The translations under genes and the position numbers were made by a program. The notes below the pieces were generated by a model. That model did no database searches. It worked only from the letters and a program-made list of their open reading frames with translations, and was not told the DNA's origin. Of a DNA stretch of 64,000 nt, positions 434 to 57,526 are shown one piece after another; position 1 is the first letter of the stretch, and every line of letters begins with the position of its first letter. The stretch is from Apostichopus japonicus (taxonomy: Eukaryota > Echinodermata > Holothuroidea > Aspidochirotida > Stichopodidae): positions 17,905,984-17,969,983 of the forward strand of contig NC_092564.1 in assembly GCF_037975245.1 (NCBI RefSeq), in the 5' to 3' direction.

Positions 434-3400
434 ACTAACTGTCACAACTGGTCCAACTTTGAAAAAGGCATAACGGTCTCCACTGGTGAAGTCCAGCACC
501 TCTTCTTTGAATAAATCGCTCAACTTCTCTGCATATAGTTTCATTCTCGACGGTGTTCCACCAATAATCACAAACTACGGTAAAACAGGTAAAAATGAAA
601 AGAATAAATTGCAATGTTGAAATTCTATCTATCGCTGTTCTTTCTTTTTTCTTTCCCTGCTTTTTCTTGTTTTTTTGTAGGAGAGTATTTTATCACAGAT
701 AGTCTAGTCTAGCTGCCTTAGAATCATGTGCTAACTTCAACCTTCAATGTAGGCCTTACATTATTTTTAATCTCAGAACTGTTGATCATTGCTGTACATG
801 TATACATTTTCATATTCTATTCATCAAATTAAATACTCAATGACCTTTACACTGACTCAAAATACTGCAAGTGAAACTACTTTGCTATTACTGAGCTAAC
901 ACAAAGACACTTATATGCTCAGAAATTGATAATTAACTATTATATAATTACAGACACAATCATGCATACATACATGTATGTATTTAACGCAAATTCCTAC
1001 CATAGCTAATTGATGTATGTATATATACATATATATATGCACTGGATGTAGGCAGCACTTAATTGTGATCCTTGAATATGATGGATTGACTTCAAATATC
1101 AAGGATGCTATAAAGTTTAATCAAACTTCAAGGGTTCTGGATTTACATTGACTTGCAGCGATTACAGAAGCATATTTTAAATTAAAATACCCTCAAAAGT
1201 TGGAGTGCCAATTGATTATGTTTGACAAGTGAACCAGGAGATTAAAAAGTCCAAGGATAGAAGGCACAGTACTTTACCAGACTACTGTAGTGTTAACATA
1301 CATATGTATGTATATACGGCAATTAATTGCAACAAAGAAATATCAACCAGCATGATATATGTCGTAAAGATCAATGTTTTGGTCTTCATGGATACAGTAT
1401 AATCTTGTATCTGAACTACGTACATGAAGATGTCAGAGTAGCATCTTTCAGCAGTGACTGATGTTTAAGTGGGAGAGTTAACAAACATGCGCATAAATTA
1501 TGAAGTAGGTACTGTACTTGAAGGATGTTAGTCACTTACAGTACTGAAAAGCATCATAGCATTGGGGGTGATGTAGATATCTATATCATCAATACAATAT
1601 AGATTGTACTTCTCCCACATGGAAAAGAATTAACGTGTTTCTACATGTGTGTATAATGATTGGATCAAACATTTTGTCATAATCCGCATCGGTGATTTCT
1701 GCATTTTGTTATATATTGCTTGAGTTTCTCTTGCTCCCCAGACCTTAATGACTGACATGCTGACCCGAGTTATTATGTCACTTTTCAGGGGCGTATCCAG
1801 GATTTTCTAACCCGGGGGGCGCGAATTACTATCTAAGCGGAGCGCCACCATCGGTTGGCGCGCAGCGTACAAGAAAATTTCTGGTTTTGATACACCCCCA
1901 GATCACCGGAAATGGGACATCTCGGGCTTTAAAATGACCAACCAGATCTACACTTTTGCCCGAGAATCAAGTATTTCCCAATAGTTTTGTTTTCATCCCC
2001 AAAATTTTTGAAGATTGTCACCAGTCACGCATCATGTTCGACCTCATGGCATCTCCTGTGGGTCATTGCTTTTGTAGATGATTCTACGTCGCGGCCCAAA
2101 ATACCCGTCAGCCCCACTTTTAAAGGTTTTAAGCCGATTAGCATATTTGTTCAGAATTTGAAAGTTCACATTTCTCGTGAAATAAATTCACTTCAAAACA
2201 TACTCATAATGTTGCACAAATTTTCATCTATGGACAACCATTATAGAAAAAACCTCCTTCAACCCCTAACAGACCGGATACCGAGCACTACACACATAGA
2301 CAGTTTGGAGGCTGTTCATCATGGAACGGCATTTTCATGCTCACTGATATGATGTGATATTTGCTGTTTGCTTTACATAATGTTGCACAAATTTTCATCT
2401 ATGGACAACCATTATAGAAAAAACCTCCTTCAACCCCTAACAGACCAGATACCAAACACTACACACATAGACAGTTTGGAGGCTGTTCATCATGGAATGC
2501 CATTTTCATGCTCACTGATATGATGTGATATTTGCTGTTTGCTTTACAAATTCGAATAATTGAAATGAGACTGAAATAAATAACTTTTATCTGTTTATTG
2601 GCAATGCCCCACATTCTTTTCATTTTGAGTTTAAGTTCATTACACACTGAAGGCTTCGATTCTCTATTTGCCTTCAGTTTAGGGAAGATCTTGGGATTTT
2701 CATCCCTAGATATCGCTAGATATTGCTAGATATCCATACAGTAAAGTGTCTTTGTGATTTCTTGGGATTTTTCGGGGCCTGATCTTGGAAAATTGCAAAA
2801 TCAGGAGTGGTCACACTCCATGTAGGTCAGTGCATGACCTTTTTACATCACTAAAACACAACCCGATCACTTGTTATCGATGAAGCGGTCTGTTGCCGGA
2901 TTTTGTCAGGAGTCTGGGTACTACGGGCAAAGGTCATTAATTAAGTTTCGCATGAGAAATTTAATTTTTAGATTCATTGTATGTGTTACGGTACTATAGG
3001 TTTGGGGTACAATTAGCATTCAAGTCGGGGTGTATAACATTTTATCTCTGGATGGCAGTGCTGCATCGAAGGACATATGTCTAGTGCAGTTCTCATATAG
3101 ATCCTGGTCTAATACCGAAATGCATCATGTTCCCTAACGACTCGGTCGAGTTCTAGACCAGCCACAGTTGGTTTCAGAGCACAATTGTACAATTGTGTAA
3201 GGCGTCCATACACACACACGCGTCATCAGGGGCGGTGATCTGTTTCAAATATTGGGGGGGACGTTTGCTTGGGTGCAGGCGCGTAGCAACCACATCCCCA
3301 AATTTTTTCGCGCGCTTCGTGATATTTTGTATATATACCAAATTTCATTACAGATGCTGTCTGTCTTATGGGCGCAGATCAGTTTTGGATAATGGTGGGG

Positions 3401-5843
3401 ACGCGTATCTGTTAATCTCTGTTACTATCTAAGCGGAGCGCGACCATTGGTTTGCGCGTAGCGTACAAGAATTTTTTTGGGCAAATATACCTCCCAGATC
3501 ACCGGAAATAACACTTCCCAGACACAATAATGAACCAAAACCGCCTTAAATTTGAGATCTCATGGCTCAGAAATTTAAGTTGGGGAAACACATGGACTTC
3601 ATGCAGAAAAAAAAATCAGGGGACAATAATCCAAGGAGACTTTTGTATACGATGGGTCTGGGTCCTCTCCCAGAAAACAATTATAGACTGCCGCAAATGC
3701 GATATCCTTCCAAAAGTTAACAACTGTGGATAAATGTAATAAAGTGAGAACTGCTGCATGTCATTTGCACAATGCTGGATCAAACTGCGCCAAAGTTCAA
3801 TACAGGGAAATTTGCTATGCAGCGTTTGTTCAAGACAAATTGGTGGGGACAAAGTATATCATGTCCCAACCACTGAAAAAGTTGGTGGGGGCGCGTCCCG
3901 TTGTCCCCACCAGGATCTGCGCCCATGGTCCATCTAGCTAATTCATTTCGAAAATAAGTAAAAACTACTCTCCGTGAAAGTCTGTGTCGTTTTTTGGTGA
4001 TATTTAGTAACAAATTGTGACACGGTTAGACAGGCGCATAGCAAGGAATTTGCCAAGGGAGGGGCGAAGCTTGTTGGCAAACTATCTAAGCGTGGCACCA
4101 CCATGCATGATTTGGCGCGAAGCGTAAAAGAAAATTTTGGCCAAAAATGTCTCCTAGATCGCTGGAAATGGCACTTCCCTGGCCTTGAAAGTTGCATCTA
4201 AGCATTTTCTATTTTGAAATTACAAGCGATATCATAAAAAATATGCTCTTATAGCCACAAAAAACTATGCCACCAAATATTGGGGGGGGATATTAGATAC
4301 TATATCCCCCACCTAAAATATTGGGGGGGACATGTCCCCCCCGTCCCCCCCATGATCGCCGCCCATGCACGTCATGATATATATATATTAGTGAGAGAGG
4401 AAAAATGGGAACGTCAAAAATGGAATTTTCGGTGTTAGGCTCAGAGGTGCACGCCCCTTCCGAAATCCTCAATCCGTCACTGGCTACCCTGCGTATATAA
4501 TAGGGATCAGCGCTGTAATTATGTCACTGTTCCTCTTTCTCTTCCCGGTGTCTTGGCGTTTTTCTTCTGCTCCCTCCTTTTCTCCTTTCCTCCTTTTTCT
4601 CTCTCTTTCATCTTTTTCTTTTCTTTTCCCCTCCTTCCTCCTCTTTTCCCTTCTCTTTTTTTTCTTTCTTCTTCTCTTTTTTTCCTCTCCTCTTTTTCTT
4701 ACCCGGGGGCGCGCGCCCCCAAGGCCCCCCCCTGGATACGCGCCGGACTTTTCCATCATTTACCTTTCCAATTTAAACTTTTTTTCATAATTTCAGATTT
4801 TAAAAATAATTGAACATTATTATAGAAACTGTTCCCAAGAAAGCATTTTTAAACCCTGTATGGCACTTATTGCCGGCTAAACTGTCTGAAATCCTTTCCA
4901 TGGTCACATTTTAACTTGCCAAAGTTCTTCTTGTCTCAGTATGTATACTAATTTGCACAGTTGGAGGAATATAAGTAAGGCCTCCCCTATAATTCACATT
5001 CTAGGAGAGCTACTTACTTTAAGCTCCTTGATAATAACATGTAACACCCAATATTAGTTATGGATATGTGTAAAAGTACTGTAGAATGCAGGAATTAACC
5101 ATTACTCTGCTCATATAGGGCACAATGCATTCCAATTAAATGGTTAAATCTATATCTGTGGCTGAAAAGTGGTTCCCTGCGTGATAGTGTAGCTAACAGA
5201 TAGGCTAAAAAGTTATTATTAACTTGGTTTAAGCAATGAATGTATGCCATTGTCTAAACGATCGATGCTATGTACCTATCAATACTAATCAATACTATCA
5301 TCATGTTAAGTGTGTGATACTTGATGCATACATGTACCCAAAGAACATTGCACAGTATTTCAAGACAACCTTGTAGAGCTAATATGAATCGATCAATAAT
5401 CGTTGTATTGTGTGTTGATACGCTATGCTATGCTTCGAAAAGGTCACGTTTGGTGATGCGTATGGCTATTCGTGTTTGTGCATGTACATACTGGTTAGTT
5501 TGAGTGTAATGAACACAGCAAGGATAGGTTTTAATTTCACAAAGACCTGTAGAATATCAGGGCAACTGAGGTTGCTGGCAGGACAACATCATTACGTTGC
5601 ATAAATGAGTCAAGCTAATCAGGAAGTATAGTGTATGGTAACCCTGGTTTTCAATATCACTACTTGAAAAATTAGAAAAATTTAAAAAAACTAGTACCCA
5701 TACCTTTGTATCTCTAAATTTCTGAATATTCTTTGGATCACGAGTGTTCGGTCCCAAGTGAAAGAGAATGTCTTCTTTGAGGTCAGAGAGAAATGGATTT
5801 GGGAGTGACATAGTTGCTGTTGAAACACTCATCTTTGCTGCAC
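434..5843 (-). CDS. UPP: Uridine phosphorylase (UPP1/2-like), 5' part, gene continues off the left edge
   Basis: Uridine phosphorylase reversibly cleaves uridine to uracil and ribose-1-phosphate in cytosolic pyrimidine salvage. Two coding exons are visible. Exon A is 5843..5704, with ATG at 5832-5830, an acceptor at 5844 and 5' UTR before the ATG; it encodes 43 residues including NPFLSDLKEDILFHL, matching the vertebrate N-terminal NPNIAKMKEDILYHF pattern. Exon B is 574..434 (47 residues) and contains FVIIGGTPSRMK and SGDRYAFFKVGPVVTVS, the family's phosphate-site segment (GGSPSRMK) and the following DRYA.YKVGPV block. The intron 5703..575 is phase 0, with donor GTATGG and an acceptor ending in TAG; exon B ends at donor GTAAGT (433-428). 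The remaining exons lie beyond position 1. A non-coding first exon should lie upstream of 5844 but was not located. Identification is by recalled family motifs; UPP1 and UPP2 cannot be told apart from this fragment. Confidence 0.88.
1787..1990. mobile_element. hAT-like terminal fragment
   Basis: Begins with CAGGGGCGTATCCAGG, a hAT-style CAG...GGCG terminus, and continues with an 'actatctaagcggagcgcc...gcgcagcgtacaagaaaat' module that recurs at 3424, at 4081 and, inverted, at 7214-7511. The other end is not recognisable, so this is treated as a truncated non-autonomous copy. Confidence 0.55.
2208..2548. repeat. 171-bp tandem duplication (two copies)
   Basis: The 171-bp unit beginning aatgttgcacaaattttcat at 2208 is repeated head to tail at 2379 with only a few substitutions (for example ccggataccgagc versus ccagataccaaac). 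Short apparent reading frames across the unit show no protein similarity. It lies in the large uridine phosphorylase intron. Confidence 0.85.
3237..4367. mobile_element. Non-autonomous hAT-like element with nested repeats
   Basis: The ends are inverted: the left begins CAGGGGCGGTGATC and the right ends GATCGCCGCCCATG. Flanking octamers CGCGTCAT (3229-3236) and CACGTCAT (4368-4375) differ at one position, as expected of an aged 8-bp hAT target duplication. The interior is a mosaic: a CAGGCGCGTAGC end at 3286, the 'ctatctaagcgg' module at 3424-3540, and a second family member from 4031 (CAGGCGCATAGCAAGG) to about 4245. Direct repeats of an 'aaatattggggggg' motif lie near both ends. No transposase is left. 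Confidence 0.6.
4031..4245 (+). mobile_element. Truncated copy of the 7214-7511 MITE family
   Basis: Starts CAGGCGCATAGCAAGGAAT and matches the reverse complement of 7214-7511 over 'ctatctaagcg...gcgaagcgtaaaagaaaatttt...agatcgctggaaatggcacttccc'. Similarity is lost near 4245, before the second terminus. It is nested in the 3237-4367 element. Confidence 0.65.
4430..4745. repeat. Polypyrimidine-rich stretch ending in a GC-rich transposon terminus
   Basis: Between 4525 and 4700 the plus strand is almost purely C/T (tcttctcctttcc type). It is followed by a GC-rich end, cccccctggatacgcgcc, which is the inverse of the CAGGGGCGTATCC-type terminus seen at 1787. Long apparent frames on both strands (poly-Lys/Arg/Glu or poly-Phe/Leu/Ser) are products of this low-complexity composition, not genes. 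Confidence 0.55.
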
Positions 5844-7511: not shown

Positions 7512-7700
7512 CCGAAGCATCTAAAAGAAAAGGTGGTACAAAGCACGGCCGTACCAACATGAACGGTGCAACAAGATTGTTCGTGAGTCTGATTGAACTT
7601 GTGGCAAAGTTCTCCGTCCGACTGTATGGCGGGCCATCAGTCTCAAATCATGGGAGATCGACTTATACCGATTTAAATCGACATATACCAGTTTCCTTCG

Positions 7701-7770
7701 ACATATCATCGATTTATTTTACTTATCATCGATTTAAATCGATGATAAGTAAAATAAATCGATGATATGT
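7701..7770. repeat. Perfect 70-bp palindrome, copy 1
   Basis: The sequence from acatatcatc at 7701 to gatgatatgt at 7770 equals its own reverse complement over all 70 bases, centred on TTTAAA. It contains four ATCGAT sites. An identical palindrome lies 163 bp downstream. Confidence 0.95.
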
Positions 7771-7863
7771 AGAATTAATCGATGATATGTCGATTTAAAT
7801 TGACATATACCAGTTTCATTCTACATATCATCGATTTAAATCGACATATACCAGTTTACTTCC

Positions 7864-7933
7864 ACATATCATCGATTTATTTTACTTATCATCGATTTAA
7901 ATCGATGATAAGTAAAATAAATCGATGATATGT
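7864..7933. repeat. Perfect 70-bp palindrome, copy 2
   Basis: Base-for-base identical to 7701-7770 and likewise a perfect 70-bp palindrome. Its flanks differ from those of copy 1, so identity stops at the palindrome boundary. Confidence 0.95.
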
Positions 7934-8156
7934 AGAATGAAACTGGTATATGTCGATTTAAATCGATGATATGTAGAATGAAACTGGTATATGTCGATTT
8001 AAATCGATGATATGTAGAATGAAACTGGTATAAGTCGAAGGAAACTGGTATAAGTCGAAGGAAACTGGTATATGTCGAAGGAAACTGGTATATGTCGATT
8101 TAAATCGGTATAAGTCGATCTCCCATGATTTGAGACTGATGGCCCGCCATACGACT

Positions 8157-14300: not shown

Positions 14301-17300
14301 AAGAGTTTCATTGTTTTTCTAGACAGGAAATAATATTTTACAAGAGACAAAATTCAGAGCCGGCAACACTGCTACACAAAATTTGGAGGCTAAATTATTC
14401 CCAGGTTGTGTTATAATGTTATATGTTAGGGTAAGTACAGTATATTAGATATGACTCACAATTGGCAAATATGGAGTACTGTTTTAGAAAATACATATAT
14501 TGGAATTTTTGGTCACCCCTGGGGCCTTTGTCAGCCATACAGTACTTGGCTGTGGATTGAACGGGACAAAATGTAACATAATGAAAGTATGATTCTAGAA
14601 AAGTACGAGCAGATGCCGAAAAACACCATTGACATTCGACCGGTGGGAAGTGGTGGGAAGTTGGGGTGGTGGGAAGTGGTGGGTGGGGAGTAGGGTTGAC
14701 CCAGTTGACTAAAAATAAAGGGAAACAGTCTCTTTAATAATCTCAGTATGTTGAGTTTTTAACTTTAATAACAATTGAGAATGAGTGTATGTCAATATTT
14801 TTTCACAGCACAATCTATGAAACTGTAGTATCAAAACACCAAAGAAGGAAACTGAAATATCTCAGTCTGATTCTCAGGTTGAGCATCTGGGAAAATTCCG
14901 TCGGGGTATGTCGGTTTTTTCCACAGCTCAGTTCTATGAAACTGTAGTATAAAACCAAAGAAGGAAGTGAAATATCTCAGTCTGATTATCTGGTTGAGTT
15001 CCTGGGAAAATTCCGTTGCTGTTTTTAAACTATTGTTATATTCACTGTTTCTCTACATGCATTGACTGGTGTCTGTTATGTTACGCTTCACCAAACCAGT
15101 GGTTGCTATGCCAGTAACAGTTCACTGGCAGGATTGATTGTTTATGGCATCCTGTACCAGTCATAAAAGTTAAAAGACTTTGTTCAACACATGAATGATT
15201 TATGTGAATGTAAAGTGCAAGGGTGAACCTAGCTCTAAAGCAAATTTGAAATCAATTATTTTCACATGTTTACATGAGAACAATGTTCTAACGTAACAAC
15301 TTTCTGACCTCATTCCTTATAATTCAAATCTGATTTGAATAGTCAAAAGACTGGAAAAAAAAAGAAGGAATGGTTTAGATAACTGTAGGGTGCCAGGGTA
15401 GTACCAGCTCTTAAGCAACTTGAAATAAATCCTATAGATCTATATCTTTACATGTGAACAATTTTATACCATAAGTTCTAACTGTTCTAATTTACTCAAA
15501 TTGGAGTTCAAAATAGAAACTAAAAGTAAAACAAAAACCTGTTAGCAAACTGCTTTATATCCACTAAAGATCCTGTGTAAGAGAATATGTCAAAGTAAGT
15601 GGGCCTGACGTTTCGATCCTAGCAGGATCTTCTTCAAAAGGCTGAATGACAAATAGTATTTTATAAGAGTAAGTTTGTCCCAAAAAGTTTGCTCAGTATA
15701 TCCATACCATGAACATTCTGTTATAAAATTTCCTTCTTGTTTTTGTCTGTTCCTACAGGTTAATCTGTGTCTACCTTGCTTGTAAAATTGAAGAGTTTAA
15801 TGTTTCGATATCTCAATTTTGTGATAATCTACCCCGTGGCAACGAAGAGGCGAGTGAGAACATACTTAACAGTGAACTCCTCGTCCTGCAAGAACTCAAC
15901 TTCCAGTTGACCATTCACAATCCATTCAGGCCATTGGAAGGATTCCTTATCGATTTGAAGGTAACTATGTTATCAAAGATCTTCTTATGGATAAAAATTG
16001 TTAGCACCTCTAACTTTCAAACACTTAGCTTTCACATCTTTGACCTCTGGAATGCACAATAAGTTGACAATGTTCAAAACATGAAGCTGAATAAAAGAAG
16101 AGTCATTTTTTGATAACCTAAAAACATTTTTCACCTCATACTGATTAGGAATTTGAGAAAGAAAACAGTTTGTGTTCAAAAGTGCATTTTTAAACAACAA
16201 TATCGGAATTCCCCACTTTTGTATTAAGTATTATACAATGTGAGATGGATATCACATCATAATAAAACAGAGAATTTTTCGTTTCGTTCGTTAAGACGAG
16301 GTATCCACTTCTCAAAGAGCCTGAGCTACTCCGAAGAGGTGCGGAAGAATTTTTGCATCGTTGCATGGCCTCTGATGCTGCGTTTCTCTTCACACCTTCC
16401 CAGGTAAACAAAATTAAACACATGCAGAGTCGAAATAGATTAACAACTGTCAACATTTATGGTTAAGATTGAATTGTGTAGTTCCCAAAAAACCTTTTTT
16501 ACTTCAGATAATTTGTGGTATGAATCATCAAACACAATTTTGGGTAAAAGTCTTCTTTTTTTCAACATTTCAAATGTTTTGAAAGGGCAGCTATGAATAC
16601 CAATCTACTGAGGAATAATTCATGTCTACCATCCATTCCTTTCATATTTTTCCTCAAATACATCAAGGGATGGTCAGAAATGGGACCAATGTTTCTCTAA
16701 ATAAACAATATTGCTGTTGAAAAAAGTATTACACCAAAATGCAACAACATTGTCATTGTTTTTTTATCTTTCTTTTGTTATGCCTTAATTTGGAGCATAG
16801 TGTTTGGGTTTTCTTTCTGTATTCATATAATGATATCAGTGAATGGAACATTTCGCATGTTCGTGTCTTTTTACTATCTCAACATATCTGCCGGGAATAA
16901 TTTATCCGATATCTCATCTCATCTGTCTTCTTCTTGCCTAGAGGCAAATAAGGCCTCCACAGAGCATCTCCATTCGTCTCGGTCGGCAGCTGCGTTTCTG
17001 GCCTCATTCCAGGATTGCCAACCAGTCCTCTCTCTCTCTCTCTCTCGCAATGTTAATGTTCTGACATTCCACTTACCAATTCTCATCTTACTCTTTTGGG
17101 TCCACTAGTGACCTAGTCAGCATAGGAGCGTCCTCTCGGCTTTGGCTCAGATGCGAGCGAGAGCTGCCACTGTGTCCCCAAGATTTAATAAATTTGCTCT
17201 ATTGATGGTTTCCGTAGCAAGTGTTTGTCTTTTAATGGGTGGGGTTGCTAGCCCCAAGCCCAATCCTCCTCCTTTCGCATCCGGGCTTGGGACCGGCAAA

Positions 17301-20300
17301 GGCAAATAGCAAAAATGCTATGTAAAATGGTCAAATTGCTATAAAAGTGCAAAGATGCTTGTATAGCGTTTTTTTTTGTTTATACAGGAACTATAGTAAT
17401 TTATATGAGAATAACGTCATAGGCTTCAAAATTGCTAAACAATATTTGAACGCTAAGTTATTGCCTAATCTGCGATATTTCTTCTTCATTTTTTTGTCGT
17501 TTTCAGATCAGTTTAGCCGCAATTCTGACCAGTGCCTCCAAACAAAAGATGAATATCGATAGGTATGTACACAGAATAAAATGTGAAATTGTTCAAGGTT
17601 CTTGTCCTTCAAATCCACCCCTTAAAGGCTCTTTTAATATGATTAAAATTTGGATTAAATTCACCCAATAGCCATTCTGAAGAAAGCCTTCAGTCGGTCG
17701 GTCAGGTCACTAAGGTCAATCTCTGTCAGGAGTCAGTGTGTATAGCAATGATGCTACGTACAGTATACTAGTCAAAGTTGTCTTAATATTCAGTTTACCC
17801 TCGGAGGACTCGTTTATGTTTGTGATAAAAAAATGTTTGTTATTAAAAAAAAAAAAGTAAATATAGTCTGTGTCATTTGAAAGATGTAGAGGATGATATG
17901 GTTTAAACCGGTGCTGTGGCACAGTGGATAAAGGCTGTGGCAGTTCAAAACAATGAGGCTGAGCAATCGGGAGGTTCCAGGCTCGATTCCCGGCCGGGTC
18001 ATAGTAATGTGGGTTTTTCATCCAAGAACAATCTACAGATTTTCCCATCTGAAATGACTTTCTAAATCGAAAAGATTTCAAATTTGAGTTAAAGTGTTGA
18101 ATTGGAAGCCACCCGACGTGTAAGTTGTTATCCATATGCCCTTGCAGGTTTCTCCCTCATTTGTGGTCGCTTAAGCGTCTTAAAAATAACTGCTGATTAT
18201 TATTATTTTTATTGTTATTTTTATGGTATTATCAAGGAGAAATGGCAGGATCCTGCTTTAACACATAATATATCTGTACATTAAGTGATTGAATAACGGA
18301 AAACCAAACCAGAGGTCAACTGGTGCAAATCATGTTCTAGCCATAAATTTCTTTGCCCTTTCCAATTACATAGTACATCTGTTTAGAAATTTACACATAT
18401 TGCTAAACTTCTGTTACAGGTATGTGACAGAGTCTTTGCTCGGTGGTGAAAAATCTGAGAACCTCAAGGATATTATTTCAACAATAAAAAGTAAGTTGTT
18501 AATCCAGTTGAATCATCTTTAAAGACTATTTTTTTTTGGCTTGTATTTGATTAGTTAATTTACTCACAAAATTTAGAACAGAATTTTCAAGCTACAGTAT
18601 ATGCCAGCTGTTTATAAACTTTAGCAGCTTTTTGTATTTGGTAGATAATTTTACTAAACCTACGAAGTATTTCGTGAAGTACGATTCCAATTGGTCAATG
18701 TATGGTAAGATGATCTCAGAAATTGTATGACCCAATGAGATAAATATTTCATTGCAAATGAGTAATTAGTCCAACTCAGATCTTAACATTGGATTGCCCA
18801 GGTTCTTTCTCACATTTTGTATAAATTGGAGTCTTTTTGACAATTACAGCATTTGTTTGTAAAGAAGTTTGACTCAAGTTAAAGAGATTTATTAGTTTTG
18901 AATAGTTTCGAAAAATTTATGAAAATCTGCATTTAAGTAAGACAAAATGTAATACCTTGCTGACCGAAGGGAAAATACTTTTCATTGTATGAAGCAAACA
19001 TTACTGCAAGCAAATTGTCGCAGATAACCATACAAAGATTAGACTGCAAGAATTTATAACTATACAGCTGTAAGGAATACAGATTTATTACAAGCACTTT
19101 GTATTTGTCTGAGAAATTAAAAACAAATTCAGTCAAGCTTTTTGCACAGAACACAAGTGCTATCCAACTTAGTTATTGTGATTTACATAAAAGATAAAAA
19201 TAACATAGTGCTATATAAATACTGTTGCCAGAGCTGAGGGTCATTTTCACTTTAAGTTCAGTATTAATCACCAATATGGTCTGGCAAAAATGTCAAAGGA
19301 ACTAATTTCATTTAGTTGTGATTACAGGTTGTAAAATATGCAAAGTTCTGTGGAATTTATCAGTTAATATCATAAAATGATATCATCTTTGCCTTTGCTC
19401 TTTGCTCTCAAGAAATCAAGCAGCTAGTCGCCCAGGTCCCAACCGTAAATTTTGAAGAGGTCAAGAGATTGGAGAGGAAATTAGAACATTGCTTAAATGA
19501 AGAGTTTAACCCTGAGAGTGAAATGTGAGTAACCATGTATTTTGAAGGGTTTTTGTGTTTGTGTGTGTTACCACTGTTTTTGTAGCATTATTCAAATGAC
19601 AAAAATTAATATTCTTATCATTTTTTGTTGTATTGACATATGATCAGAGTATATTGAAATGATTGGTTTCAATTTTTCTTCAAAGGTCAAAGAACGGTGT
19701 ATTTATTTCAGAAGATAGCTCTGTTTGATCTGTTACGATCAATACATATAAACTTTATGACATTGTAACTCTTGTAATATCACTTTGCTATTCTCTGTCA
19801 GTAAAAGATGTTTAAGTTTACCATGGATGGGTTGTGTAAATGGGAAGTTAGATAGGCAGGGGCATTGATATGGGAAGGGGCATGGAATGGATGGATACAT
19901 GGATAGGATGTGTAATTTGAAGTTAGATAGGCAGGGGTATTGGTATGGGAAGGGGCATGGAATGGATGGATACATGGATAGGATGTGTAAATGTGAAGTT
20001 AGAGAGGCAGGGGTACTGATATGGGAAGGGGAATGGAACGAATGGATACATGGATTGGTTGTGTAAATGGGAAGTTAGAGAGGCATGGGTATTGATATAG
20101 GAAGGGGCATGGAATGGATGGATACATGGATGGTTGTGTAATTGGGAAGTTAGGGAGGCATGGGTATTGATATAGGAAGGGGCATGGAATGGATGGATAC
20201 ATGGATGGGTTGTGTAATTGGGAAGTTAGGGAGGCAGGGGTATTGATATGGGAAGGGGCATGGAATGGATGGATACATGGATGGGTTGTGTAAATGTGAA

Positions 20301-21827
20301 GTTAGAGAGGCATGGGTATTGATATAGGAAGGGGCATGGAATGGATGGATACATGGATGGTTGTGTAATTGGGAAGTTAGGGAGGCAGGGGTATTGATAT
20401 GGGAAGGGGAATGGAACGAATGGATACATGGATTGGTTGTGTAAATGGGAAGTTAGAGAGGCATGGGTATTGATATAGGAAGGGGCATGGAATGGATGGA
20501 TACATGGATGGTTGTGTAATTGGGAAGTTAGGGAGGCAGGGGTATTGATATGGGAAGGGGCATGGAATGGATGGATACATGGATGGGTTGTGTAAATGTG
20601 AAGTTAGAGAGGCATGGGTATTGATATGGGAAGAGGCATGGAATGGATGGATACATGGATAGGCATTTCACTAGTGATATGATTTAATATTTTAAGTTAA
20701 CTAAAATGAATAAACCTTCATGGCATTGTGGTTTGTGGATGTGTTTTGTAATTCATTTGGGATAGCAGTATACTATTTTGGGGTTCATATTCTCTCATTT
20801 TCTGTCTGGTTTATAATAGATACAAGAGAAGACTACAAGAGCAGTTAGATTTTGAGGATGATGATGGCATGATGGGGTCAAAGGTGAGGTCTTATTCACA
20901 TATTTACCTGCAACACTGTCAATGTACAGTGTCAGAATTCTCTCACTAGGAAATCAAACTTGACTTGTTTTAACATAGCTACCAATATCCAATATATCAA
21001 AAATCATTGGGTAGTGAATACAGTGACTTTCTGAATACCAAGTAGCACCTATCTCTAAGTGCTTTCCAATTTGCTTCACTTAAACACTTAAACTATTCCT
21101 ATATACTAAATTACTAACTATATATGATACTATTCCGTAGAAAAATACCATAACAGTTCTGTCCACAGTCAACCCATAGTGGCGGCAAGTAAGAATAATA
21201 TTTAAAACAGTGACATATTAGATACAAGCTATTTAACAGTGCTGGGATAACAGCAGTAACCTATGCTGTCCATAATCACCCTGTTAAATAGGGTGAATAC
21301 TAAATAACCTTTTAATAGTGACATATCTGAGTTCAGAAAATCAATGACTGCATCAAAAAAAAAAAAAAAATTTTCATTTTTTCATCTTTTCATCATCAAA
21401 ATTTAGCTTTTGAGAATTTTCATTTTGAATCATGCACCTATCCATTCTCATGAGAAAAATAAAATCATAAGCATAATTATGAGCAGCAAAAAGTGCTATG
21501 TAAATGTGCATTCATCTCTACATTTAGTTATTACATTGTCACTTTATAATATCACATGTGACTTGCAATTGGTAACATCTAAGGATGCATGTTTAGGAGA
21601 TGTACTCTTATATCTCTTCTTGCTGAATGTTGTGGGCTTGGGAAAGGAGGGAGGTCATTGGGGGGTGGGGGGGGAGGGCGGCTGGTGGGAGTGTAGGAAA
21701 GAGAACCAGAGGGTTGAGGGGGTAATTCATTATTCATTTGGAAAAGAGTCGTCTGAAATGAAGCCCGGTACTAACTCATCACTTCCTTTCTCAGTCGTTA
21801 GATAATGAAGATTTTGATATGGACTGA
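11314..21827 (+). CDS. CCNH: Cyclin H, CAK/TFIIH regulatory subunit (complete coding sequence)
   Basis: Cyclin H binds CDK7 and MAT1 to form CDK-activating kinase, which works free and within TFIIH in the nucleus. Coding exons: 11348-11464, 13023-13145, 14143-14216, 15759-15960, 16296-16403, 17507-17562, 18420-18490, 19413-19524, 20820-20883, 21795-21827 (TGA). They sum to 960 nt (319 aa; human is 323) and every junction is in phase with GT/AG borders. The N-terminus [15 protein letters not shown] matches human MYHNSSQKRHWTFSS. Cyclin-box landmarks are [11 protein letters not shown] (about residues 81-91), [12 protein letters not shown] (about 110-121) and [20 protein letters not shown] (about 149-168); FLFTPSQ ends exon 5. 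A charged helical region near 255-300 precedes the acidic tail NEDFDMD. A 5' UTR segment 11314-11347 follows a TTTTACAG acceptor, so an upstream non-coding exon exists but was not found. Confidence 0.95.
14797..15020. repeat. Tandem duplication of about 115-120 bp in cyclin H intron 3
   Basis: Two head-to-tail diverged copies share cacagc..a..tctatgaaactgtagtat, accaaagaagga, and tgaaatatctcagtctgatt...gggaaaattccgt. The second copy begins near 14912. No coding potential. Confidence 0.75.
15601..15643 (-). ncRNA. Degenerate hammerhead-ribozyme-like motif, copy A (Penelope-like end)
   Basis: Read on the minus strand: stem I strand GCCT; a core that should be CTGAAGA but reads TTGAAGA; stem II GATCC-TGCTA-GGATC; core GAAAC; GTC; then AGGC, which pairs with GCCT. 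Only the first core base is lost, with one extra T. The motif is shared with 45682-45723 and 57031-57062, inside a conserved aagtaagtgggcctgacg context. It is inactive as written, given the mutated CUGANGA box. Cyclin H intron 3. Confidence 0.55.
17909..18225 (+). mobile_element. tRNA-derived SINE
   Basis: The 5' part is tRNA-like: an A-box-like TGGCACAGTGG about 17920 and a B-box-like GGCTCGATTCC about 17979 (canonical GGTTCGAATCC). It is followed by a non-tRNA body (gccacccgacgtg...gcgtcttaaaa) and an AT-rich (TTA)n-type tail. It is in sense orientation within cyclin H intron 6. No clean target duplication was identified. Confidence 0.7.
19810..20670. repeat. 75/76-bp minisatellite, about 11 copies, in cyclin H intron 8
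   Basis: The marker gatacatgga recurs at 19894, 19969, 20045, 20121, 20196, 20272, 20348, 20423, 20499, 20574 and 20650, spacing 75 or 76. Variant units (aaatgggaagttagagaggcat versus aattgggaagttagggaggcag) alternate, giving a two-unit 151-bp higher-order pattern in places. On the minus strand runs of 75-bp units stay open and spell [15 protein letters not shown]-like peptides. These are fragmentary and not considered coding. Confidence 0.93.

Positions 21828-41907: not shown

Positions 41908-57526
<15,619 letters not shown>

Follow-up and report, generated by a model that had tools for sequence, protein, structure and literature searches.

It was in 2014 that Penelope-like elements were found to carry minimal hammerhead ribozymes (Cervera and De la Pena, as cited by PMC6155905, PMC7229834 and PMC11167929), whose role in the life cycle may be traced in the ends of insertions. 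In the green anole, the protein of the Poseidon element PAc cuts and extends both strands in vitro, and starts internally at two sites; elements with a mutated ribozyme still insert, and RNA-seq reads starting or ending at the cut were not detected (PMC11167929). In bdelloid rotifers, Penelope families carry inverted terminal repeats with an optional tail on one of them, 8–10 bp target duplications, and palindromes at the inverted junction, and self-priming was proposed as their origin (PMC3846280).

Here we describe a family of such elements in the genome of Apostichopus japonicus, starting from a 64 kb stretch (the window, C4:17905984-17969983) that contains three damaged copies of a hammerhead motif. 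The family resembles the published minimal hammerheads in its element class, in the position of the motif in terminal repeats and in the lack of stem III, and differs from them, as the citing papers present them, by one additional A next to the CUGAAGA box on its 3′ side and by a subfamily with U at position 3 that has spread. Among the works cited by PMC6155905 is one on a viroid hammerhead that has an additional core nucleotide. Like PAc, the family has a single open reading frame (ORF) with a reverse transcriptase (RT) and a C-terminal GIY-YIG endonuclease, tandem units, a hammerhead at the junction of repeat and ORF, and two reverse transcription start sites that explain the "tail" (PMC11167929). 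Unlike PAc, whose two strands did not apparently differ in their start sites in vitro (PMC11167929), the family has start sites approximately 64 nt apart that appear to be used one on each side of head-to-head insertions. The rotifer features listed above recur here as well, except that our data favour two primed ends over self-priming.

The presence of hundreds of intact and hundreds of C3-to-U copies in one genome lets insertion ends serve as a record of RNA templates, and in the sampled record these templates were mostly uncut at the cleavage site, with the two sides of an insertion using different start sites. The rule of one start site per side, the spread of a C3-to-U lineage, and insertions of 60 bp consisting of the ribozyme and its tail were not found in a literature search that lacked the 2014 original; we do not claim that these three are absent from print, and the tail on one inverted repeat is already noted in PMC3846280.

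Hammerhead motif copies in the window

The sequence-only reading of the window had proposed that three minus-strand loci share an ordered set of hammerhead boxes, each copy being broken at a different place, and reading the sequence at each locus confirmed both the shared order and the position of the breaks. Positions within the element are numbered from the predicted cut, GTC^+1. Copy A is a 3′ terminal piece on the minus strand (15523..15652) that spans the cleavage site, reaching from about -45 to +79, and comprises the ribozyme motif and a long (+86-type) tail. In its motif (15603..15642, minus strand; GCCT-TTTGAAGA-A-GATCC-TGCTA-GGATC-GAAAC-GTC-AGGC) stem II and the GAAA box are intact and the first core box is altered to UUGAAGA, with C3 changed to U and one extra U. 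The change in this box is present as had been noted, although it is not damage private to copy A but common to a C3-to-U subfamily with 537 exact copies. The motif of copy B (45684..45722, minus strand; GCCT-CTGAAGA-A-GATCC-TGCCT-GGATC-AACAC-GTC-AGGC) is broken in the GAAA box. Copy C (57013..57339, minus strand) consists of 3′ UTR, damaged ribozyme and a tail to about +22, and its motif (about 57033..57061, minus strand; GCCT-CTGAAGA-A-GATCC-TGCTA-AAC-GTC-AGATC) is without the 3′ strand of stem II and the start of the GAAA box, including G12. All three copies have one unpaired A between the CUGAAGA box and stem II.

Short box patterns were barely above chance in the 64 kb, with at least three matches in 16/100 and 5/100 shuffles for the two patterns used, and of the three window matches of the second pattern, the one at 4742 was unrelated. 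A profile derived from intact-motif copies of other genomic regions (13 of 24 copies, all outside the window) recovered copy A (E = 3e-36), copy B (E = 5e-23) and copy C (E = 3e-13), together with a fourth piece that the sequence-only reading did not include, on the plus strand at 46618-46695 (E = 6.5e-19). A 25-bp tandem repeat array at 56387-57019 abuts the 3′ end of copy C. Peptidase M2 was the only domain recognised in a Pfam scan of five window frames, in an exon-like plus-strand frame of the angiotensin-converting-enzyme family at 51385-51804 (Peptidase_M2, E 8e-32).

A Penelope-like family with young copies

Further copies were sought in the genome from which the window comes, 671.6 Mb in 35 contigs. 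A loose hammerhead pattern gave 3296 matches versus 1240 in the reversed control; the exact intact motif (AGCC..GTCAGG) was found in 791 copies and its exact C3-to-U version in 537, each with no match in the reversed control. An ancestral element with an intact ribozyme motif had been postulated, and the intact form does exist in these 791 copies; it is not merely a reconstructed ancestor, young copies being present.

With the endonuclease of a single copy as protein query, 150 of 2181 candidates were scored, and by our count 17 of these 150 lie in open frames of 923 to 953 aa. Several of the loci lie in arrays with a spacing of approximately 3.25 kb; the array at C11:15.67-15.69 Mb has a right end of the +22 type. 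L189, the one locus examined at sequence level, has plus-strand ribozyme motifs at 2517-2547 and 5768-5798, 3251 nt apart, and a minus-strand motif at 162-192; its inverted arms, 466 and 972 nt long, show 100% complementarity. Its ORF of 953 aa contains RVT_1 at residues 466-617 (E 6.5e-9) and GIY-YIG at residues 856-891 (E 3e-4), the latter at 21.4 bits, just below the curated cut-off of 22.6. The element had no sequence match in the PDB at E 0.01. The family shows units in tandem or partial tandem with pseudo-LTRs, and likewise inverted copies, the tail and target duplications. From the single RT and GIY-YIG ORF and from the alignment of copy B to L189 it follows that the host of the motif is a Penelope-like element of the RT and GIY-YIG type with young copies in this genome. 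Some of its reading frames are open over their full length and some arms are identical, and the family is thus not extinct.

Identity of the motif and the C3-to-U subfamily

By its sequence the motif is a minimal type-I hammerhead, a type already published, with stems I and II and no real stem III: only A-C-G-U stands between GAA and C17, where an intramolecular stem is impossible. The proposal that the window copies are hammerhead-type motifs of a Penelope-like element is borne out by the family, whose 791 exact copies combine the full set of core boxes with both stems and the GUC site; the CUGANGA box, GAAA box and NUH triplet are present in order in these copies and in none of copies A, B and C taken alone. 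The minimum free energy fold of the intact form (-11.5 kcal/mol) consists of stems I and II, with one added loop pair in stem II, and copies A and B fold in the same way; copy C does not. Among 120 unique motif-covering copies, 95% and 97% of stem cells were paired, with just one compensatory change. Covariation was dropped as proof of a ribozyme because these copies are too alike, a single compensatory change in 120 speaking neither for nor against it.

Two expectations of the sequence-only reading fared less well. The Rfam hammerhead covariance models that it had named as a check gave no match in the window, or in copies A and B alone, at the gathering threshold or at E up to 10, and none in L020 and L058 at E up to 1. 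A dimer of two ribozymes paired through ACGT, which it had also suggested, drew no support from an estimate of two-strand energies: the hammerhead-like dimer, held together by an ACGU:ACGU helix, came to -19.5 and was not the most stable form, compared with -30.8 for a plain self-complementary duplex.

Position 3 varies in the same 120 copies, with C in 68 and T in 50, and the share of T is underestimated because the set includes loci chosen for C; the next most variable core or stem position, -9, was changed in 17/120. The two states are linked to position +26: among copies that have C or A there, C was found in 48/48 with T3 versus 20/40 with C3 (p 4e-9). Mean divergence within the two position-3 groups is alike (3.7% and 4.0%). 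The changed-core lineage has thus spread to a number comparable with that of the intact lineage (537 versus 791 exact copies). In the anole element, C3G abolishes cleavage (PMC11167929), and PMC7151607 places a natural hammerhead with U at position 3 among rare core variants that cleave more slowly and presumably still work. We infer that C3U may abolish cleavage here, leaving a dead ribozyme.

Target-site duplications and the complete insertion at copy B

Copy B is part of a complete insertion of 1030 bp (45666..46695) with two head-to-head arms, both tails pointing outward. It is flanked by the target-site duplication TGAATAAAGA on the left (45656..45665) and on the right (46696..46705), in each case directly outside a tail, and this 10-mer has exactly two plus-strand occurrences in the 64 kb, one at each end of copy B. 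The main arm (45666..46618, minus strand, 953 nt) contains the C-terminus of the RT, a GIY-YIG remnant, the 3′ UTR, the ribozyme motif and a tail to +22, and is 81% identical to positions 2383-3333 of the L189 unit. Within it, the decayed endonuclease region (46034..46376, minus strand) is frameshifted and interrupted by stops but still aligns with the endonuclease of copy L002 (tblastn, E 3e-38); Pfam found no domain in the decayed frame at 46137-46493. The inverted arm (46618..46695, plus strand, 78 nt) is the fourth piece found by the profile. It covers +2 to +79 on the long-tail side, shares one base with the main arm, and its inner end adjoins the predicted cleavage position.

Among the insertions sampled, which for all statistics here and below come from contigs C1-C5 of this one genome, a share is flanked by target duplications with lengths of 10-16 bp. 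Duplications of at least 11 bp close to the 3′ end were recorded for 14 insertions from 62 rows (39 + 23, some rows being the two arms of one insertion), comprising four head-to-head insertions (L019, 11 bp; L022, 15 bp; L045, 15 bp; L048, 13 bp) and ten simple ones (L010, L011, L013, L023, L026, L028, L030, L032, L036 and L047). In the remaining rows the exact-match script found no target duplication, only 8-10-mers, or doubtful cases (L020, L027). The insertions at L013 and L028 are approximately 60 bp long and consist of the ribozyme motif and tail, with nothing more.

Insertion ends relative to the predicted cleavage site

Two classes of 3′ ends predominate among the insertions, one at about +22 and the other at about +86. 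For the statistics on 5′ ends, loci were chosen by an exact stretch of the tail, +30 to +59, which avoids the bias of choosing by intact motif. We took the 100 listed places for tail variant 1 (2690 genome matches with up to two mismatches, reversed control 0) and 40 of the 100 listed places for tail variant 2 (210 exact matches, reversed control 0; two earlier-sampled places skipped). Collapsing seven groups with a common 3′ flank, with the longest arm kept, reduced these 140 loci to 124 events, all from contigs C1-C5 of one genome. Ten loci with an identical 3′ flank (L159-L162, L166, L168, L171, L172, L181 and L186) represent one short head-to-head insertion that was seemingly multiplied inside another repeat.

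Half of the events (62/124) reach -60 or beyond. The other 62 have shorter 5′ ends, with 12 in the range -40 to -36, 10 in the range -10 to -5, and 3 in the range -1 to +3. There is no peak of cDNA ends at the predicted cut, the 3/62 short ends at -1 to +3 being what a uniform spread would give (p 0.57), and the histogram shows the scissile bond crossed by 110/124 insertions, with 14/124 ending at +1 or later. Because most insertions cross the site and no ends accumulate there, the templates of most tail-selected insertions were uncut at the cleavage site. Among the tail-selected copies that reach -33 (n=94, uncollapsed), 46 have TTGAAGA, 23 have CTGAAGA, and 25 are other or unscored; many of the crossing copies are thus C3-to-U, and their uncut templates therefore say nothing about an active ribozyme.

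Head-to-head arms and a proposed two-ended mechanism

Many insertions consist of two head-to-head arms, often unequal in length. Within the 300 bases examined for each of the 124 events with a +86 tail there were 32 inverted matches, 24 of which were scored, the other eight being omitted because they were cut by the edge of the stretch (three) or had E above 1e-3 (five). Opposite the +86 tail, the outer end of the inverted arm lies at +18 to +31 in 21/24 pairs and at +75 or beyond in none; the exceptions are L050 (+7), L156 (-3) and L133 (+69, a weak gapped alignment). Seven further pairs of a short-tail and a longer-tail arm were found at L022 (a second pair), L035, L048, L015, L021, L012, where the arm ends at +60, and copy B of the window. 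The arms meet at ACGT (L049, L152), at GATC (L088) or at the stem II hairpin (L121, L159).

By analogy with the anole element in vitro, the endonuclease would open both strands of the target, and both ends would prime reverse transcription inside the RNA, one at the +22 site and the other at the +86 site. The two cDNAs would afterwards be joined, in many cases where the sequence is self-complementary, as it is at ACGT or in the stem II hairpin. Two cDNAs of equal sense have no other stretches than self-complementary ones through which to pair, and palindromic junctions would thus follow from the joining of two primed cDNAs. With both start sites on the 3′ side of the cleavage site, only RNA uncut there can yield copies that reach past it; most likely, then, the ribozyme is inactive, or held off, until after copying, and it would act, if at all, in RNA processing at another stage. 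We assign a probability of roughly 0.78 to this explanation as a whole, that is, a Penelope-like element with a terminal minimal hammerhead, two-ended priming at +22 and +86, and a ribozyme that stays idle until after copying.

Alternative explanations

Head-to-head copies might instead arise by fold-back of one cDNA that primes itself on the antisense template, as PMC3846280 has argued for the rotifer elements. The agreement of inner ends would fit such an origin: they are equal within 1 nt in 11/24 pairs, versus a mean of 1.7 and a maximum of 8 in 10000 shuffles, although such equality is partly expected because both arm alignments run through a common self-complementary centre. One folded cDNA would predict equal outer ends, whereas 21/24 lie near +22 opposite +86, and direct target duplications flank both tails at L019, L022, L045, L048 and copy B of the window; we consider self-priming unlikely here. 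Less probable still is that the reverse-transcribed RNA owes its 5′ end to ribozyme cleavage, with cDNAs ending at +1 and the window arm at 46618-46695 as a footprint. That arm does begin at +2, and the counter-test includes copies with a possibly weak or dead ribozyme (46 of the 94 have TTGAAGA), which dilute it, but the number of short ends at the cut equals the uniform expectation and 110/124 insertions cross it. The end of the window arm at +2 was accordingly dropped as a candidate for a ribozyme-made RNA 5′ end, as 3/124 ends fall at -1 to +3.

A further alternative concerns the motif itself, whose resemblance to the hammerhead boxes could be due to chance or be purely structural, the stretch being kept for protein binding or priming and not as a ribozyme. 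The silence of Rfam for the window, L020 and L058 would agree with this, as would a C3-to-U lineage of at least 537 exact copies. Set against it are the co-occurrence of core boxes, both stems and GUC site in 791 exact copies, the minimal hammerheads already described in such elements, and the protein-assisted cleavage published for one of them (PMC11167929, PMC7229834 and PMC6155905), and we find it quite improbable. The two-ended insertion of an element with a terminal minimal hammerhead remains the explanation that we prefer.

cDNA ends at the 5′ edge of the ribozyme motif

The cluster of short 5′ ends near -36 to -42 coincides with the outer end of stem I. This cluster was first noticed in intact-motif loci, which are biased, and then tested on tail-selected loci. 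A range of -38 to -36 was named first, and the range of -40 to -36 was not settled until set 1 had been inspected, in which 9/40 short ends fall in that range after collapsing (p 5e-4 versus a uniform spread); in set 2, also collapsed, the figure is 3/22 (p 0.14, not significant alone). The wider range of -42 to -36, chosen after set 2, holds 16/62 short ends. Some loci of set 1 are places sampled earlier (for example, L064 = L019, L067 = L022, L068 = L023 and L080 = L045), and T-rich flanks may inflate the ends at -39 to -37. Runs of T are present at several of the 5′ edge junctions (L129/L130, L080, L090), as expected if the polymerase runs off the end of the RNA and adds A. A second, weaker excess of ends, at -10 to -5 (10/62, p 0.012), is found immediately 3′ of stem II, where the polymerase may have stopped.

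The cluster at the 5′ edge of the ribozyme motif, as moderate evidence, suggests that the RNA starts there. The sequence has TCATTT or TCATTC at -42 to -37 and GGATC at -13 to -9; TCATTY would match an initiator whose A lies at -40, and counted from such a start GGATC would stand at +28, the place of a downstream promoter element. These observations can be combined in a reading that we offer tentatively and, taken whole, regard as rather doubtful. The hammerhead would form approximately the first 40 nt of a transcript that starts at about -40, and would serve both as promoter (TCATTY and GGATC) and as the site where cDNAs join. The 60-bp insertions would be run-off copies, priming would be fixed at +22 and +86, and the C3-changed subfamily would spread with a crippled ribozyme, which within this combined reading would make cleavage dispensable for movement. 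Should the ribozyme stretch also carry a promoter, Pr77 of the trypanosome element L1Tc would be a precedent, with the differences that its ribozyme is of the HDV type and that it belongs to an unrelated retrotransposon (PMC4748587 and PMC4035085).

Other repeats and motifs

A second hammerhead family was noticed at about 1501-1530 in L003, L005 and L006 (CTGATGAGTC..GAAACCGGTC or similar), directly 3′ of a tRNA-like B-box that reads GGTTCGATTCCTACC in L005 and L006 and is diverged in L003. Rfam matched HH9 in L005 (35.5 bits) and type III in L006 (27.1 bits), both below their cut-offs, and ARAGORN found no tRNA at these loci. Judged from the arrangement of these motifs, it looks as if a tRNA-derived SINE carried the ribozyme. 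Within the window, an inverted repeat at 7669-7965 has arms of 135 nt that are 93% complementary, lie 27 nt apart and contain internal repeats. Tandem repeats with a period of approximately 76 bp occupy 19754-20809, and others, with a period of approximately 66 bp and open frames in two registers, are found at 54528-55023.
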